This document shows positions 2,801 through 60,776 of a DNA stretch of 64,000 nt, in pieces. Source of the DNA: Bacillota bacterium (GTDB taxonomy: Bacteria > Bacillota > Clostridia > Oscillospirales > CAG-382); the NCBI GenBank assembly GCA_029550965.1, contig JAKPGJ010000027.1:62001-126000 (forward strand). The letters are read 5' to 3'. Below the pieces are notes generated by a model. The model worked only from the letters and a program-made list of their open reading frames with translations, made no database searches and was not told where the DNA came from. The first letter of the stretch is position 1, and each line of letters begins with the position of its first letter. Made by a program: the position numbers and the translations under genes.

Positions 2801-3910
2801 TTAAGGGGTGATCGGGATAAACTTTGCGATTCTTCTGCGCATTCCCGGCAGCTTTTTCTCGATATCCTTCGCAAGCGCGACCTGGCATTTTGCCCTGATA
2901 AGATTATGTTTCGGTTTTCTGCACTTAAAATAGACGTCGCCGTTCAAATAATCCGTCAGGAAACGGGCTGCGAGTTCCAAAGTCATAATGATAACGCCGT
3001 CCGGGAGATTGTCGAATTCGGTTTTCGTAATCACGTCCGAAATCTGCGGGATAAACCCGCAGGCGAAACTCTCGTATTTATCCAGGTCCAGCGAAACCTT
3101 GGACAGTTCCTCCTCGTCCTCTTCGGCGGTGTTCGCCGCGAACCGTATGGCGTCGCCAAAATCGTGGGCGACATACCCCGGCATTACCGTGTCCAAATCA
3201 ATTACCGCCAGCGGCGCGCCGGTGTCCTTGTCGAACATGACGTTGTTGCATTTTGTGTCGTTGTGCGTGACCCGCTGCGGCATTTCGCCCAACTCGTTCA
3301 GAATCCTGAACTTCGAGGCGTATTCTTCCCTGCTTTTCAGATATTCCAGTTCTTCGATGACCTCTTTTCGTCTTCCGTACGGGTCCCGCTCCGCCGCTTC
3401 GTACAGGTCCAAAAAACGCTTTTCGGTATTATGAAAATCAGGGATGGTCGTGTACAGCTTATCCGCCGGGAAATCCAGCAAAAGTCGCTGGAAGGACCCG
3501 AACGCCTCGCCCGCTGATCTTAGAATTTGATTCGTCACCTGATTGTAGCTGGCGGAATTATATACATAGGATAACACGCGCCAGTTGTCGCCGTTTTCCG
3601 CTATGTAAAAATAGTGTCCCTTTTTATTTCTATATAATCTAAGAACCTTGCGCCGGATGTCGGTATCCCCGCGCTCTCTCAGCTTTTTCTCGATATGGGA
3701 AGTCACAAGCTGGATGTTGCTCGCGATTTGCAGGGGGTCTTTGAATACTTTGGTGTTTACTCTTTGAACGATGTACTGTTTTTCGCCTGTTTCGGTTTTC
3801 GTGTTAATGACATACGTATCGTTGATATTCCCGGATTTGATGATGTCGTAGCTTACGTATTCGCCCTTTAGCCCGAAATCTTCGCAGATTTTCCTGAACA
3901 GAGTATCCAA
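2801..3910 (-). CDS. APH-fold kinase, NahK-like (N-acetylhexosamine 1-kinase family)
   Basis: The 369-residue protein belongs to the aminoglycoside phosphotransferase/choline kinase fold. It has the catalytic loop THNDTKCNNVMFD near residue 215 and the metal-binding block VIDLDTVMPG near residue 236, followed by DFGDAIR. This combination resembles NahK, which makes N-acetylhexosamine 1-phosphate from GlcNAc or GalNAc in bifidobacteria. Substrate assignment here is inference. The open frame runs to 4066, inside the upstream gene, but a TTG at 3910 lies 9 nt after GGAGG and precedes the conserved sequence, so I take that start. It is separated from the upstream acetyltransferase by a terminator yet lacks an obvious promoter of its own. 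Confidence 0.8.
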   Translation of the reverse strand: MDTLFRKICEDFGLKGEYVSYDIIKSGNINDTYVINTKTETGEKQYIVQRVNTKVFKDPLQIASNIQLVTSHIEKKLRERGDTDIRRKVLRLYRNKKGHYFYIAENGDNWRVLSYVYNSASYNQVTNQILRSAGEAFGSFQRLLLDFPADKLYTTIPDFHNTEKRFLDLYEAAERDPYGRRKEVIEELEYLKSREEYASKFRILNELGEMPQRVTHNDTKCNNVMFDKDTGAPLAVIDLDTVMPGYVAHDFGDAIRFAANTAEEDEEELSKVSLDLDKYESFACGFIPQISDVITKTEFDNLPDGVIIMTLELAARFLTDYLNGDVYFKCRKPKHNLIRAKCQVALAKDIEKKLPGMRRRIAKFIPITP

Positions 3911-3948
3911 AACGGTATACCTCCAAAAATAATAAATAGCGGCGCAAT

Positions 3949-3971
3949 AAAAGAGCCGAAAAGCTCTTTTT
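3949..3971 (-). terminator. Short symmetrical terminator after the AAC(3)-like gene
   Basis: AAAAGAGC, 6-nt loop, GCTCTTTT. On the minus strand the T-run follows the stem. It overlaps the stop codon of the gene at 3970. The stem is short, so read-through into the kinase gene is plausible. Confidence 0.6.
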
Positions 3972-4728
3972 ATTGCTTTTGGATATAGTCTATAAAGTAA
4001 TGCGGGTCCTCGGCATACTTTTTTCCTGCTTTGAGCCACATTGCCCGCGCGTCTATTAAATGGCAATAAGCCCTTAGAACATAGCCCGTTTTTAGCTCTG
4101 TTCCTGCTTCGAGCAGACCTTCCAGCCTGTCGTAACGCTGCGCGACGCCGGCAAAATTATGCGCGCGGCAGTAATGAACAAAGAGGTTTCCCTCCCTGTC
4201 CTTCATTTGGTATTTGTATGTATCGCCAAATAAATAGTCCGGTTCGTACAGTTCCTCAACCGCGTGCATCGAGGTGTTCGGGCGCATGCCGCAGCCGAGA
4301 AACAGAATCTTTCCGCCAAGCTCTTTGACTCTTGCGAACGGCGAGTTCGCGCCGCAGGGCGTCGTATCCAGAATATGACCGGAAGTGACATACTCGGCAT
4401 GTTTCCCAAGTGCACAGCATGAGTGCGTAGGGCATAAGCTTCTGATTACGCCCTTCACCTTTGTCCGAAAATATTCCGGTATTGCGCCCACGTTCGACGG
4501 CGTATTGTAGTAATCAAAATACGGATTGTTTTTATTGCAATGCAAATAGCTTAAAGCTGGGAACACGACGGTTCCTTCTTCGCCCACCGCGCGGGTGAGC
4601 GCGTCGATGACCTGCTGCGGAGAGACCGGCTCGCCGAGCGACTTCAGCGACGAATGGATTAGAACCGTGTCGCCTTCCGTAATCCCCAGTTCTTTAAGCT
4701 GCGCTGCTATTTGCTCGATCATGTCCAT
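3970..4728 (-). CDS. AAC(3) family N-acetyltransferase
   Basis: The 252-residue protein matches the Antibiotic_NAT fold. It begins with GDTVLIHSSLKSLG (residues 19-32), has GTVVFPALSY near 53, SLCPTHSCCALGKHAEY near 97 and the conserved cofactor-site loop LGGKILFLGCGMRPNTSMHA near 137. Family members transfer acetyl from acetyl-CoA to aminoglycosides, but many chromosomal homologues have other, unknown substrates, so resistance should not be assumed. A consensus promoter lies at 4795-4823, with a strong hairpin in the leader just before the weak ribosome binding site. An in-frame second ATG lies two codons downstream. Confidence 0.85.
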   Translation of the reverse strand: MDMIEQIAAQLKELGITEGDTVLIHSSLKSLGEPVSPQQVIDALTRAVGEEGTVVFPALSYLHCNKNNPYFDYYNTPSNVGAIPEYFRTKVKGVIRSLCPTHSCCALGKHAEYVTSGHILDTTPCGANSPFARVKELGGKILFLGCGMRPNTSMHAVEELYEPDYLFGDTYKYQMKDREGNLFVHYCRAHNFAGVAQRYDRLEGLLEAGTELKTGYVLRAYCHLIDARAMWLKAGKKYAEDPHYFIDYIQKQ

Positions 4729-4750
4729 TAAATATCTGCTTTCCCGATCC

Positions 4751-4773
4751 TTCCCGCGGTTTTCCCGCGGGAA
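4751..4773 (-). promoter_or_regulatory. Perfect 9-bp palindrome in the leader of the AAC(3)-like gene
   Basis: TTCCCGCGG, 5-nt spacer, CCGCGGGAA. It lies about 15 nt downstream of the predicted transcription start and about 23 nt before the start codon. It could be an RNA hairpin limiting translation or a repressor site. There is no T-run to make it a terminator. Confidence 0.5.
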
Positions 4774-4794
4774 TTACGAAAATTTATTAAGAAC

Positions 4795-4823
4795 ATTATA
4801 TTTTAATCGGACGATAATGTCAA
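4795..4823 (-). promoter_or_regulatory. Full-consensus sigma-A promoter
   Basis: Minus strand: TTGACA (4823-4818), 17 nt, TATAAT (4800-4795). It drives the AAC(3)-like gene. Confidence 0.9.
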
Positions 4824-5049
4824 CCGTTTAAACAATTTTTATATACTTCATTTTTATTTTTGTTTGCGATAAATAATCAGATTCTTCAATAACCAGGCCG
4901 ATGAACCGGACAATAATCATTATATGCCGGAACGAATCTGTCGGATAAATTCGAAGCTTGTATGCTCGTCCTTTTAAACCGCTCGAAAGCTATTATAACG
5001 GGATGAAATGGCGTTTTTTGTCACATCCTGCATTTTTATACATATTTTT
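4824..5049. other. Intergenic region without recognised features
   Basis: About 225 bp of AT-rich sequence between a promoter and the 3' end of the GlgA-like gene. I see no T-tract terminator, RNA gene or open frame of interest. Confidence 0.5.
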
Positions 5050-6282
5050 TTATTGTTTTATTAAACTGTTATACACTTTCAAGTATTCTTCCGCGGTTCT
5101 TTTGCGTGTAAAATCCTGCCGGACAATCTTTTTCACAAGCGAATTCCACGCTTCTTTGTTTTGATACCGCGCGCTCGCTTGTCGAATCGCGCCGAGCAGG
5201 TTCCAGACGCTGTACGGCGAAAAAGAAAAACCGTGTCCATCCCCTTCGGACCCGTACAGCGGAACAGCGCCGTACTCCGCCGCCGGAAAACTTACCGCTC
5301 CGAATATCCCGCCGTCGTCCGGCAGCAGGGTCATGTCGGCGCCCGCGGAAACAAAACGCGCGAGCGTCCGGTCAAACGAAATGATCGCTTTCGCTTTCCG
5401 CGGATGGCGGGCGGCCAGATTTTGAAAGAATTTTTCGAAGTATGCGTCGCCCTTTCCCAAAACTACAAGCTGAACATCCTCTTTGAGTATTTCCTCCGCC
5501 GCAAGCGCCAGCGTGTCCAGTTTTTTCCGGTCCGAAAACCGCGTCATCACCGCTATCAGCGGAACGTCCGGTTTTTCGGGCAGCCCCGTCCGCTTTTGCA
5601 GTTCGGACTTATAACGCTCTTTTTCCGCCGCGATCTTCATAAAAAGCCCGCTGTTTTCAAATTCTCGGTCAAACTCGCCGATTTCAAACAGCTTATACCG
5701 GTATTGTTCTAAAAACGCGCGCAGTTCCTTAGAAAAGTCGAGCATGGTTAATGCCGGACCGACCGCGACCGCGTCTGCGGATTCGACCGCGCTTTTTAAT
5801 CGGTTTATGTTCCCGCTTGGTTCGCCGGCTTCAGACAGGCGGCTCAATGTGAAAACGCGCCGTATGCCGGCATACCTGCCGTCGCGGCCGGCTTTTTCTT
5901 TTATATAAATTACGCTCGCAGCCGCCGGCAGGTCCAGCGCGTGCAGAACATCGGGAAAAAAGTTTAGCGCCGGTATCGCTTCCGGTACTGCTTTGCAAAA
6001 AAACGATGCATGCGGAAAACTCCGGCAGTCCGCAAAATAGCAGGCCGCGCCGTTGTATTCGCAAGAGTAAACCGCGATGTTTTCGTTTTCCATAGAAAAC
6101 TGCGCAGCGAAGGCAAGCCGCTCACCCAACCGCTCCATTCCGGCGTCCAGCGGCAGAATGACGCGTACGTCCAGATTTTGGTCGCGCCGCTTCAGCGCGG
6201 CGGCAAGGCCGCTTACTTCAAGGACGATTCTTTCGGCGGACGCATTTGGGTTTTCGTTGGCGGCAAAAAGTATCTTTCTCAT
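5050..6282 (-). CDS. Degenerate glycogen/starch synthase (GlgA, GT5) homologue
   Basis: The 410-residue frame has the outline of GlgA: an N-terminal MRKILFAANE strand, a VRVILPLDAGM block near residue 40, a second Rossmann domain with PLIAVMTRFSDRKKLD near 245, and a C-terminal QDFTRKRTAEEYLKVY. However, the ADP-glucose-binding KTGGL loop expected near residue 15 is replaced by NASAERIV. The C-terminal EPCGL-type motif is replaced by DDGGIFGAVSF. I infer that the protein has lost synthase activity or changed substrate. The ATG at 6282 has AAAGGA 9 nt upstream; the frame is open to 6381 but without conservation. The gene is intact, with no stops, and no glg gene is adjacent. Confidence 0.75.
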   Translation of the reverse strand: MRKILFAANENPNASAERIVLEVSGLAAALKRRDQNLDVRVILPLDAGMERLGERLAFAAQFSMENENIAVYSCEYNGAACYFADCRSFPHASFFCKAVPEAIPALNFFPDVLHALDLPAAASVIYIKEKAGRDGRYAGIRRVFTLSRLSEAGEPSGNINRLKSAVESADAVAVGPALTMLDFSKELRAFLEQYRYKLFEIGEFDREFENSGLFMKIAAEKERYKSELQKRTGLPEKPDVPLIAVMTRFSDRKKLDTLALAAEEILKEDVQLVVLGKGDAYFEKFFQNLAARHPRKAKAIISFDRTLARFVSAGADMTLLPDDGGIFGAVSFPAAEYGAVPLYGSEGDGHGFSFSPYSVWNLLGAIRQASARYQNKEAWNSLVKKIVRQDFTRKRTAEEYLKVYNSLIKQ

Positions 6283-6379
6283 TTGCCCATTCCTTTCCGA
6301 AACGGTAAAGCGAAAACACAATATGAGTATAACCCGTCTTATAAGAACAATACGCAAAAAGAACCCGCGTTCCGCCGAC

Positions 6380-6427
6380 AAAAAAAGAGCGGTTTTCTCC
6401 GCGCATATCGCCTAAGAAAACCGCCTC
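6380..6427 (-). terminator. Rho-independent terminator of the small membrane protein gene
   Basis: Minus strand: GGCGGTTTTCT, loop, AGAAAACCGC, then CTTTTTTT. It starts about 25 bp after the stop codon at 6452 and separates that gene from the GlgA-like gene. Confidence 0.85.
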
Positions 6428-6451
6428 GTTCCGCAATGTTTGTTTTGTGAT

Positions 6452-6643
6452 CTATTCTTCCGCAAATTCGCCTTCAAAACCGCTCTCGGTATAAGCGTAA
6501 ACAGTCTTATAATCCTCTTTTTGCGTTAAAAACGAAAGTTTTCCGCCGCTGACCGCGCCGATGAAGGCGAAAGTGATGCCCAAAAGCAGAAGCAGCGCGA
6601 TTCCCTGTATGATTCTGTCGGTCACCTTTCTTGTCAGTTTCAT
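6452..6643 (-). CDS. Small single-pass membrane protein, unknown
   Basis: This 63-residue frame encodes a short positively charged N-terminus (MKLTRKVTDR), one hydrophobic segment at about residues 12-31, and an acidic outward-facing tail. The ATG has GAGG 8 nt upstream and a strong terminator follows, so a real transcript is likely even though I recognise no family. Topology by the positive-inside rule is N-in, C-out. It sits alone between two genes of unrelated type; no function can be suggested. Confidence 0.6.
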   Translation of the reverse strand: MKLTRKVTDRIIQGIALLLLLGITFAFIGAVSGGKLSFLTQKEDYKTVYAYTESGFEGEFAEE

Positions 6644-29904: not shown

Positions 29905-30190
29905 CAACATAATTGAATACCAAAGGCGATGATGAAGACAAGTAGGCTGAAACGCCATGTACAGTGAATCGGGGAGAGTGTGAACCCGGTCAGGGAGCAT
30001 CAGCTGAATAACACTTCGGAGCTGTGAACTGAACCCGTCATCCGGCGGCAAGTAGGGGATCCGTGCTTCGCACGTTACAGCGAATACCAATGTTAGTTGG
30101 GAAAAGTGACCGGCAACGGTAATTTAGGTGGCACCGCGGATAAGCGCTATCCGTCCTAAAGCAAGAGGACTGATAGCGCATTTTTTATTG
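29905..30190 (+). promoter_or_regulatory. T-box riboswitch, asparagine-type
   Basis: The leader has a Stem I base GATGATG / CGTCATC with an AGTA element at 29942-29945. The specifier-loop region GTGAACTGAACCCG contains AAC (Asn) codons. The T-box AGGTGGCACCGCGG at 30126-30139 carries UGGC, whose variable C would pair with G73, the usual discriminator of tRNA-Asn. The terminator stem GCGCTATCCGTCCT / AGGACTGATAGCGC followed by TTTTTT spans 30144-30186. Uncharged tRNA-Asn should favour the antiterminator and turn on asnB. Which of the two AACs is the specifier is not settled. Confidence 0.95.
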
Positions 30191-58138: not shown

Positions 58139-59569
58139 CTACTTAAAGCGGTATAGATATATAGCGCCTTCCGGAACATAAATAAATAGACTTGTGCTGT
58201 CGTTCCACCCAATCGTTGTTCCTTCGATTTTCTCGTATCCCTTTCTTTCAATAATTTTAATTTCTTTCTTTACCAAATCAATTATTCCAATCTCTCTTAT
58301 ATCAAACGTATTACTATCCGCCGAATCATTAATTATCGCGATTTTCGTGTGATCCCGATTCATCAGATAGAGATATCTCGAATCCAAATCAATGCCTTCT
58401 ACTATATATTCCTCTCCATTAAAGGTTACGATTTTATAGTTTTCATTTTCTTTAAAAATGCAGGTCCCCATCGACGCATAGAGAACGGTATCATTCTCGT
58501 CGAACAACTTAATCGTTTCCTTCGTGCTGATATTGTAGCAATATCCGCTCAGAATATAATCGCCCGCCATCATATTTTCACGAAGTTCATTGTGATACTG
58601 TTCGATAAACAGCACTTCGTCATTTACAAAGGAACATAAATAAATATTGTCAATTCCTGTTAAATCCGAAAGGGAGATCGCTTTTCCCGCGGCGGCATCG
58701 AAATAAATGCATTCGCCCGGCCACCCTCCATTAAACTCAAACAAAAGCAGTTTTTGATAATCCGGGCTGAAGGAAATTGTTTCAATGCTTTTCCCTTCCG
58801 GTATTACGCCGGCCAAAATATCAGTTACTTCACCCGTTCTCAAGTCGTATAAGAGATAATAAGCGGTATAATCAGCTTGCCTGCCAAAACCTGCATGGAT
58901 CCAAACCGTATTTTCATTAAAAAATCCTTTTGGCCACGACATAATGACATCTTCCGGAATATCGCTCGCGGAATATTCCCCGGTCTCGTCTCGCAGGAAA
59001 GGTTTCCCGTTTAACGTACCATACCCGAATTTTAAATGCAGGGTGTATCCGTTAAACGAAATGGTATCGGTTACATGATTGATAATTTGCGTTATTTCCG
59101 TTGCGCCGTTATCCGTAATTAAATAGTATTTTATACTTCCATCCGGCTGATTAACCATTGCAATATTATCCGAAAGATCTCCGTCGATATTGTAATATGA
59201 TACATCGGCTATATCGTCAATATTTTGTCTCCCTATAAACTGTATCGTATTGCTTCTGCCGGTAGGGATCGGGGAAACAATTTCCGGCTCGGACGCGCGG
59301 AATAAAGAGATAACCGTTTTGCGGAACTCCTCGCCTGCAGCAATAAAAGTATTTCGGAACTCCGCGCTTGCGGCAAAGCAGACAGAAAAAGTCAGTACAA
59401 CAACTGCCAGTGCTGCAATCGCAACCCAAAACGCGGATCTCATCGCTCTTCCCTTCCTTACAGGAATTATAATTTCCGCTTGGTCAGGTGAAGCATTGAA
59501 CTTAAATTCCGCCTCGGGCAACTGCGCCGCTTTCTTGCGCAGCAATTTTTCAATAGAGTATCTATTCAT
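58139..59569 (-). CDS. Membrane-anchored beta-propeller-like protein, probable anti-sigma partner
   Basis: The 476-residue product has a cytoplasmic N-terminus of about 42 residues (SIEKLLRKKAAQLPEAEFKF), one membrane helix (about 44-66) and a large outer domain. That domain has repeated WD-like strand patterns (SIETISFSPDYQKLLLFEF, KIAIINDSADSNTF, TTIGWNDSTSLFIYV), suggesting a propeller. Directly downstream of an ECF sigma gene on the same strand (69 bp apart), this topology fits an anti-sigma factor with an external sensor. The N-terminal part does not show a clear zinc anti-sigma motif, so the role is inferred from position. Confidence 0.7.
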   Translation of the reverse strand: MNRYSIEKLLRKKAAQLPEAEFKFNASPDQAEIIIPVRKGRAMRSAFWVAIAALAVVVLTFSVCFAASAEFRNTFIAAGEEFRKTVISLFRASEPEIVSPIPTGRSNTIQFIGRQNIDDIADVSYYNIDGDLSDNIAMVNQPDGSIKYYLITDNGATEITQIINHVTDTISFNGYTLHLKFGYGTLNGKPFLRDETGEYSASDIPEDVIMSWPKGFFNENTVWIHAGFGRQADYTAYYLLYDLRTGEVTDILAGVIPEGKSIETISFSPDYQKLLLFEFNGGWPGECIYFDAAAGKAISLSDLTGIDNIYLCSFVNDEVLFIEQYHNELRENMMAGDYILSGYCYNISTKETIKLFDENDTVLYASMGTCIFKENENYKIVTFNGEEYIVEGIDLDSRYLYLMNRDHTKIAIINDSADSNTFDIREIGIIDLVKKEIKIIERKGYEKIEGTTIGWNDSTSLFIYVPEGAIYLYRFK

Positions 59570-59637
59570 TTATAAACCTACCTTTCCGTGAAAAACTTAA
59601 AGGAGTTACATTCGACCGTCAAACATACTCCTTTTCT

Positions 59638-60183
59638 TCATTTATAACCGCAGCTTTCTTTTTGATGTTTTAAATTTTGATTGCCTTCTATTAGAGTTTG
59701 CTTTATAAGTTTTAACGAACGCGCATATCGTTGCCGGACAGTTCCGGGTTTCATATCCATAATTTGAGCAATTTCTTTATGTTTCAATCCGTTTACGATA
59801 TGTAATACAACAATTTGCTGTTCTGTTTCGTCCAAACAATCCAGCATCGAAAAAAAATCGGATTGATAGTTGTCTTCTTTTGCAGATAAGGATTCGTATG
59901 TTTCGCACATTTCAAATGAGCGTTTGCGCATTATGTTCAATGTTAAATTCTTTGTCGTTGTCAGCAGCCACGATTTAATTTCGGCATCCTCTATTTGATT
60001 GATGTTCTGTATCAGTTTTAAAAAAACCTCTTGTGTTATGTCCTCTGAAAGATAAACATCGCGTGTTATTGATAAAGCAAAGCGAAATACTCCCGTTTTA
60101 TATGCATTAAACAATTGCAATATATTCAAATCGTTGGAATTGCATTTTTTCTGTAAACAACCAACGACCTCACCTCTTTTCAT
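59638..60183 (-). CDS. ECF-type RNA polymerase sigma factor
   Basis: The 181-residue protein has sigma region 2 (RFALSITRDVYLSEDITQEVF near residue 34, split as RFALSITRDVYLSE and DITQEVFLKL) with the WLLTTTKNLTLNIMRKR region 2.4 block. Region 4 is LDETEQQIVVLHIVNGLKHKEI and MDMKPGTVRQRYARSLKLI near 117-160. It would direct a small regulon, probably including its own operon. The ATG at 60183 lacks a good ribosome binding site. No matching autoregulatory promoter was found upstream. Confidence 0.9.
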   Translation of the reverse strand: MKRGEVVGCLQKKCNSNDLNILQLFNAYKTGVFRFALSITRDVYLSEDITQEVFLKLIQNINQIEDAEIKSWLLTTTKNLTLNIMRKRSFEMCETYESLSAKEDNYQSDFFSMLDCLDETEQQIVVLHIVNGLKHKEIAQIMDMKPGTVRQRYARSLKLIKQTLIEGNQNLKHQKESCGYK

Positions 60184-60330: not shown

Positions 60331-60652
60331 TGAGAGGATTTTCCCGCCTGCAAAGCGGAGCGGTGGCGGGGTCTGACAGTCCACCGGACTGTCATTCAAC
60401 ACCCGCCCTTCAAATCCATATAATAAAAAAAGCAGTTGCGGAGCAACTGCATAAATGACAGGCGTTTCGCCTGTCATTTTTTTGGTCTGAGTGAGAGGAT
60501 TTGCCCGCCTGCAAAGCGGAGCGGCGGCGGGGTCTGACAGTCCACCGGACTGTCATTCAACGCCCGCCCTTCAAATCCATATAATAAAAAAAGCAGTTGC
60601 GGAGCAACTGCATAAATGACAGGCGTTTCGCCTGTCATTTTTTTGGTCTGAG
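60331..60652 (-). repeat. Two tandem 161-bp hairpin-rich units next to tRNA-Pro
   Basis: TGAGAGGAT begins at 60331, 60492 and (in the tRNA) 60653, giving a period of exactly 161 bp over two near-identical copies. In tRNA direction each copy holds hairpins AATGACAGGCG-AAA-CGCCTGTCATT and GCAGTTGC-TCC-GCAACTGC-TTTTTTT, then GGCGGG...TGACAGTCC-GGT-GGACTGTCA...CCCGCC. Each ends in a copy of the tRNA 3' end AAATCCTCTCACTCAGACCA (complete in the inner copy, degenerate in the outer copy). Unlike a normal att duplication, the tRNA end is repeated together with terminator hairpins. Confidence 0.88.
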
Positions 60653-60720
60653 TGAGAGGATTTGAACCTCCGGCCTCTACCACCCCAAGGTAGCGCGCTA
60701 CCAAACTGCGCCACACCCAG
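60644..60720 (-). tRNA. tRNA-Pro (anticodon GGG)
   Basis: Minus strand from CTGGGTG at 60720: acceptor CTGGGTG / CACTCAG, D-arm with GTTTGGTAGCGC, anticodon stem CTACC-TTGGGGT-GGTAG giving anticodon GGG, T-loop GGTTCAAATCC, discriminator A and encoded CCA ending at 60644. A TGACAGGCG hairpin and a true terminator (GCAGTTGC stem plus TTTTTTT) follow within the repeat unit. It reads CCC and CCU. Confidence 0.95.
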
Positions 60721-60776
60721 ATAGGCAACGGCTGAATTATAGCACAATAACATTTTTGTGTCAAGTGGTTTCGGCT

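Follow-up and report, generated by a model that had tools for sequence, protein, structure and literature searches.

The repeats behind the tRNA-Pro(GGG) gene of the window, the 64,000-nucleotide stretch of DNA analysed here, very probably represent a Clostridial family of TLR-type repeats that is new and unrelated in sequence to the TLRs of E. coli (Rfam RtT, RF00391). On the tRNA strand, the order is tRNA 3' end (A), one or more terminators, an inverted tRNA copy (A'), a two-hairpin core (P) and A again. The array in the window comprises the following features:

60736..60764, minus strand: sigma-70 promoter-like site of the tRNA-Pro transcript, TTGACA-17-TATAAT (consensus scan, 12/12)
60644..60720, minus strand: tRNA-Pro gene with linked repeats, anticodon GGG (ARAGORN; Rfam RF00005, 62 bits)
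60644..60664, minus strand: A, the 3' end that is duplicated, tRNA nucleotides C56-A76 (CAAATCCTCTCACTCAGACCA)
60492..60652, minus strand: inner 161-bp unit (direct repeat)
60614..60640, no strand assigned: 12-bp hairpin of the inner unit, then T7 on the plus strand, terminator-like
60593..60611, minus strand: 8-bp hairpin of the inner unit, then T7 on the tRNA strand, intrinsic-terminator-like
60567..60578, minus strand: A' of the inner unit, the tRNA T-loop/T-stem copied in inverted orientation (GGATTTGAA) and joined to GGG, where the core starts
60494..60580, minus strand: inner A'-core-A three-way junction (covariance model match, 91.3 bits)
60483..60503, minus strand: second A, complete, directly 3' of the inner core and between both cores
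60331..60491, minus strand: outer 161-bp unit, 98% identical to the inner one (direct repeat)
60453..60479, no strand assigned: 12-bp hairpin, second copy (outer unit)
60432..60450, minus strand: 8-bp terminator hairpin, second copy (outer unit)
60406..60417, minus strand: A' of the outer unit, inverted T-loop/T-stem copy (GGATTTGAA)
60333..60419, minus strand: outer A'-core-A three-way junction (covariance model match, 93.4 bits)

The two units differ at three positions (60342/60503, 60364/60525 and 60401/60562). Both small hairpins are perfectly paired in each unit, and since their T7 tails lie on opposite strands, the 12-bp and 8-bp hairpins form a bidirectional terminator-like pair. The hairpin flanked by GGCGGG/CCCGCC has its apex at 60372-60399 in the outer unit and at 60533-60560 in the inner one. 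The outermost copy of A (approximately 60331-60343) is degenerate and reads AAAATCCTCTCATACC, against 21 complete nucleotides at 60483-60503. The first-pass annotation had described the near-identical copies beside the tRNA gene, the three hairpins of each copy, and a tRNA-Pro end that is complete inside and degenerate outside; the coordinates bear out each of these points. It had also proposed that the repeats supply the terminator of the tRNA, a role that the sequence supports, since each unit has a hairpin and T7 on either strand. The inverted T-loop copy GGATTTGAA that precedes each core was absent from that description. The folding energy of one unit lies 6.7 standard deviations below that of dinucleotide shuffles, with none of 200 shuffles equal to it. 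Only tRNA and T-box families scored above the gathering score in an Rfam scan of the window, the T-box leader (RF00230, 94.4 bits) being located at 29920-30161 on the plus strand. On the minus strand, positions 58139-60183 encode a sigma-70-like factor of 181 residues, then a 476-residue protein with no Pfam match that is possibly its partner.

A genome DNA search combined with tRNA calls revealed that the core, of about 68 nucleotides, follows four tRNA genes in the source genome: Pro-GGG, Pro-CGG, Met and Leu-TAG. The tRNA-Pro(CGG) locus has two units, one of them truncated; the tRNA-Met(CAT) locus has two, the second with a truncated core; and the tRNA-Leu(TAG) locus has a single unit plus a remnant. 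The direct copy 3' of the core is the 3' end of the locus's own tRNA at Pro(CGG), Met and Leu(TAG) (AAATCCTTTCACTCCGACCA, AAATCCTGCCTCCGCAACCA and AAGTCCTGTCATCCGCACCA, respectively), as a check suggested in the first-pass annotation had envisaged. The inverted arm 5' of the core is likewise complementary to the local tRNA at each locus, for example GAGGCAGGATTTGAA at Met. Core identity is 94-97% among both Pro loci and Met and 83-86% in comparisons with Leu-TAG, whereas the terminators of these loci are unrelated to each other.

The same relation holds for 87 distinct tRNAs that have a core behind them and cover 15 amino-acid kinds. The direct copy typically corresponds exactly to C56-A76 of the locus's own tRNA, with a median shared run of 20 nucleotides versus 6 for other tRNAs. 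For the inverted arm, the median match to its own tRNA is 10 nucleotides versus 5.8 for others, and the longest match reaches 20 nucleotides (tRNA-Arg, L251). A' and A pair with each other and close a three-way junction with hairpins 1 and 2, a fold obtained with both RNA and DNA parameters at the two loci tried. Hairpin 1 follows the pattern GGNCGG..TGAA-TGACAGTCC..GGACTGTCA-GA... At L055, L059, L074, L258 and L261, the loop of hairpin 2 contains a second palindrome (GGGGTCCCCG...GGGG), which gives hairpins within hairpins. An alignment of 85 distinct sequences, which was fitted to the covariance model and therefore leans to structure, has 95.5% of cells paired and 21 of its 26 pairs changed on both sides. 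None of 500 shuffles, and no slid version, paired as well. Covariation extends to each of the four helices, the one derived from tRNA among them, and compensatory changes are also found within the core. Such changes were already apparent in 13 of the 26 pairs when 16 copies were aligned with MAFFT and without fitting to the model.

The core was found by its pattern in 18 of the 63 genomes of the family. A covariance model built on 16 copies has matches in 83 of the 295 genomes of the order, or 59 of 226 among good assemblies. Among the matches listed, those that are named come from Clostridia metagenome-assembled genomes, mostly ruminant. The targets comprise at least 15 kinds of tRNA gene plus tmRNA, and tandem arrays of two to four units occur; rRNA genes were not seen as targets of the Clostridial core. 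Considering the 107 copies found by core pattern alone and with enough upstream sequence, 27 are located at most 130 nucleotides downstream of a tRNA or tmRNA gene on the same strand, where approximately 0.2% would be expected. About three quarters of pattern-found copies are placed away from tRNA genes, in other intergenic places, many of them nested in larger dispersed palindromes. Such nested cores in L293-L310 (G167, G289, G138) have fixed arms (GTAGCGAAGCGG...GAGAC and similar), and many are at contig ends; a single genome can contain up to 34 model matches. Rfam gave no relevant match for seven repeat loci, and a search of plasmid and phage collections for the repeat gave none. Seven IMG/VR contigs of putative viral status (L241-L247) carry the core pattern. 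Two other arrangements were observed. At tRNA-Leu(CAA) genes (L070 and L071; also L152, L175, L178 and L232), the core lies 5' of the gene in antisense, and copies of the 5' half and anticodon arm replace the 3' end copy. At L180 and L131, cores lie between neighbouring tRNA genes of Val/Asp/Gly clusters, which indicates that the element can interrupt tRNA operons.

Identity between cores is 82% when they come from one genome but from different RNA genes, 70% at the same gene between genomes and 65% otherwise. This within-genome likeness, together with the local origin of A, A' and the terminators, indicates that the core spreads within genomes and that its flanks are made on site. The terminators of first and last units are alike at some loci and different at others, a pattern that recombination among copies would produce. 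We looked for a gene that could mobilize the core. No recurrent protein family was found among the genes beside it. Y1 transposase is present in 2 of 10 carriers versus 4 of 10 non-carriers of the family, with no enrichment in carriers, and reverse transcriptase, found in 3 of 10 versus 2 of 10, does not track with the element either. An integrase beside the repeat or tracking with it was not found among neighbour genes or among the tyrosine recombinases of the genome and its relatives. The source genome encodes only two such recombinases, of 309 and 327 residues, and the same lengths recur in relatives; from length and conservation, they would be the housekeeping XerC/XerD pair. A dedicated enzyme is thus not evident. 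Clean empty sites were sought at tRNA-Pro in relatives and at tRNA-Glu in the sister genus, and neither such a site nor a recent jump was found; loci that lack P exist, and the loss of synteny around them leaves the insertion boundaries unreadable from an unoccupied orthologue.

These observations could be brought together as follows. P, of about 68 nucleotides with two hairpins, would be a non-autonomous element copied between tRNA 3' flanks by host replication or recombination. At each site, A' and A, which correspond to nucleotides ~54-76 of the upstream tRNA, close P, and a terminator then follows. Copying might proceed by template switching where the core folds strongly, and the T-loop/T-stem sequence shared by all tRNAs would act as the guide. 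Insertions that duplicate the tRNA 3' end and the terminator would be the ones to survive because they leave the tRNA intact, and tandem units would then be gained and lost by unequal recombination. Stepwise recombination between tRNA ends, as the first-pass annotation had suggested, agrees with the tandem copies and the terminators held in common. A' may be kept complementary to the local A by hairpin-templated (quasipalindrome) correction or by selection of the folded transcript; either would explain why it follows the local tRNA. Quasipalindrome template switching is an established mutational process, and no precedent for the copying of the core itself was found in the literature searched. 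This last point counts against the scheme, as do the pattern-found copies away from tRNA genes and the lack of a clean empty site or recent jump. As a whole, a TLR-type array whose core is copied by host replication or recombination and whose A and A' are made locally has, in our estimate, about even chances of being correct. The copying mechanism taken on its own is a tentative proposal.

Selection on an RNA would explain the strong covariation, including that within the core, equally well, and a small structured RNA family, one of the options in the first-pass annotation, is compatible with it. The unit might be kept because its transcript is functional: a folded RNA with the three-way junction and a CCA end would be freed from the tRNA-Pro precursor by read-through or processing, and could serve as an sRNA, as a decoy for tRNA-processing enzymes or as a protective or terminating trailer. 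Covariation of all four helices, the tRNA-derived one included, and the good tRNA promoter are consistent with this possibility. The rRNA-linked TLRs of E. coli are transcribed, processed and bound by Hfq and CsrA, no other function of TLRs being known (PMC8144298). In RtT, a covarying helix frames tandem G-A pairs (PMC8250186), and a GA..GA hairpin is present in many Clostridial cores. However, an intrinsic terminator separates the tRNA from the core and thus places the latter beyond the main stop. The patchy presence of the element (83 of 295 genomes), its many tRNA kinds and the many related cores away from tRNA genes speak against a conserved function, and the first function claimed for RtT was later retracted (PMC8144298). 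We consider a working transcript rather unlikely. Even less probable is a simple recent tandem duplication or an assembly artefact at this site alone, to which the first-pass annotation would have attributed a unit that occurs only here and in one strain. The two copies are indeed 98% identical, but the core is also present at three other tRNA loci of the genome and in dozens of other genomes, which refutes this origin for the whole unit and makes it barely credible, although the tandem step by itself may well be a simple duplication.

The remaining alternatives invoke a recombinase or a transposase. Three arrays enclose genes. In a tRNA-Ser array (L084, G002:C16:71000-81000), a TdeIII-like restriction endonuclease and an N6/N4 methylase (open reading frames 3883-4914 and 4907-6514) are placed between a truncated and a full unit, and the insert interrupts the direct copy. 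At L348 (G065:C5, ~1580-2460), a DMP19-like gene is flanked by tRNA-Glu and by a truncated unit that bears the inverted arm of this tRNA. At L256 (G051:C49, 7068-9092), two units lie behind tmRNA at a distance of 1.26 kb from each other, and between them are two open reading frames, which we take by eye to encode a helix protein of the 23S-intervening type and a cytidine deaminase; tmRNA is also followed by such a repeat in G006 (L092). These enclosed genes are the basis for reading the system as integron-like: the tRNA and tmRNA genes of gut Clostridia would anchor arrays of folded recombination sites that add units at the T-loop and sometimes capture genes, a proposal that we regard as quite improbable. 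The underlying notion, in which circular cassettes, mostly empty and some with genes, are added at the T-loop (C56) by a tyrosine recombinase that works in trans, seems to us slightly less so, and improbable all the same. It agrees with the sharp C56 boundary at many loci and with the resemblance of the folded site to attC. Against it stand the two tyrosine recombinases of the source genome, whose lengths recur across the family, the lack of any recurrent neighbour gene and units that are, almost without exception, empty; the inverted arm A' is, moreover, not made by a site-specific event. The restriction-modification insert begins inside A and looks more like a break in a unit than like a precisely bounded cassette, and this imprecise left junction weakens the case for exact gene cassettes. 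The genes in the arrays may be chance insertions into dispensable DNA. Mobilization by a Y1 (RAYT) or DDE transposase, as for a REP/REPIN or MITE, appears very improbable, although the repeats are palindromic, dispersed and non-coding, and GGTAG/GGGAG at the foot of hairpin 1 resembles the GTAG tag of REPs. The duplication covers the tRNA end and terminator (~60-170 nucleotides) rather than a short target, and copy number per genome is low. The REP/REPIN-like element considered in the first-pass annotation is thus retained as a dispersed, non-autonomous, structured repeat but fails as a REP, because most tested carrier genomes (8 of 10) are without Y1 transposase, which also shows no enrichment.

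Since 1978, the 178-bp repeats at tyrT in E. coli have stood as a curiosity without explanation. Their architecture, built from unrelated sequence and now found in a second phylum at no fewer than 15 tRNA kinds plus tmRNA, makes this a general phenomenon of which two families can be compared. The spread of such repeats is concretely constrained by the inverted arm and by the fixed boundary at C56, and with no dedicated mobility gene in evidence, it becomes a testable idea that host replication or recombination does the copying. If the integron-like cassette reading were true, the restriction-modification pair would be an example of captured genes and tRNA genes would be its platform.

Like REP/REPIN elements, the repeats are small, palindromic, intergenic and non-autonomous; unlike them, they have no linked Y1 transposase requirement, form a larger three-way structure, include tRNA 3' ends and are low in copy number. 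With the islands, prophages and satellites that target tRNA genes they share a 3'-end direct repeat, starting from the T-loop, that keeps the gene intact. They differ from these integrative elements in that their units are mostly 120-170 bp without integrase or cargo, that an inverted arm is present and that one core is found at many different tRNAs. Integron attC sites are also imperfect palindromes that fold as single strands and occur in tandem arrays, whereas here no integron integrase was found, the units are almost always empty and the flanks come from the local tRNA.

The closest relation is to the TLRs of E. coli, the only system returned by our literature search for tRNA-linked repeats. 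E. coli K-12 has 22 TLR copies at 10 loci (Egan & Landy 1978 and Rudd 1999, as cited in PMC8144298). We examined the tyrT, lys, arg, proK and rrnB loci. The tRNA-linked TLRs also carry a tRNA-specific inverted arm 5' of the core (tyrV GGGGAAGGAT, argV GGGAGGAT, lysT CGTGaAGGAT), and the true tRNA assignment alone scores so high (1/24). At rrnB, a search for the exact RNA end gave no direct copy from which the arm could be read. In both organisms, tandem units with a structured core lie directly downstream of tRNA genes, and the core is common to the loci while the end is local. The unit ends with the 3' end of the upstream RNA: 18-19 bp of the upstream tRNA or rRNA in E. coli (PMC8144298), 21 nucleotides of the tRNA here. 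Several loci per genome (four here) bear one to a few tandem copies each, and the inverted tRNA-specific arm 5' of the core pairs with the direct copy. The Clostridial core, however, is a two-hairpin three-way junction and not the RtT core, and in Clostridia tmRNA is targeted as well, with no rRNA target seen. Membership in RtT was rejected, as neither sequence nor covariance models indicate homology in either direction: RF00391 has no match in the source genome, and the Clostridial covariance model has no significant match at the E. coli TLR loci (best E 0.14). As the architecture is common to both and homology is undetectable, the Clostridial repeats are best described as a sequence-unrelated variant of the TLR kind rather than as a member of RtT.
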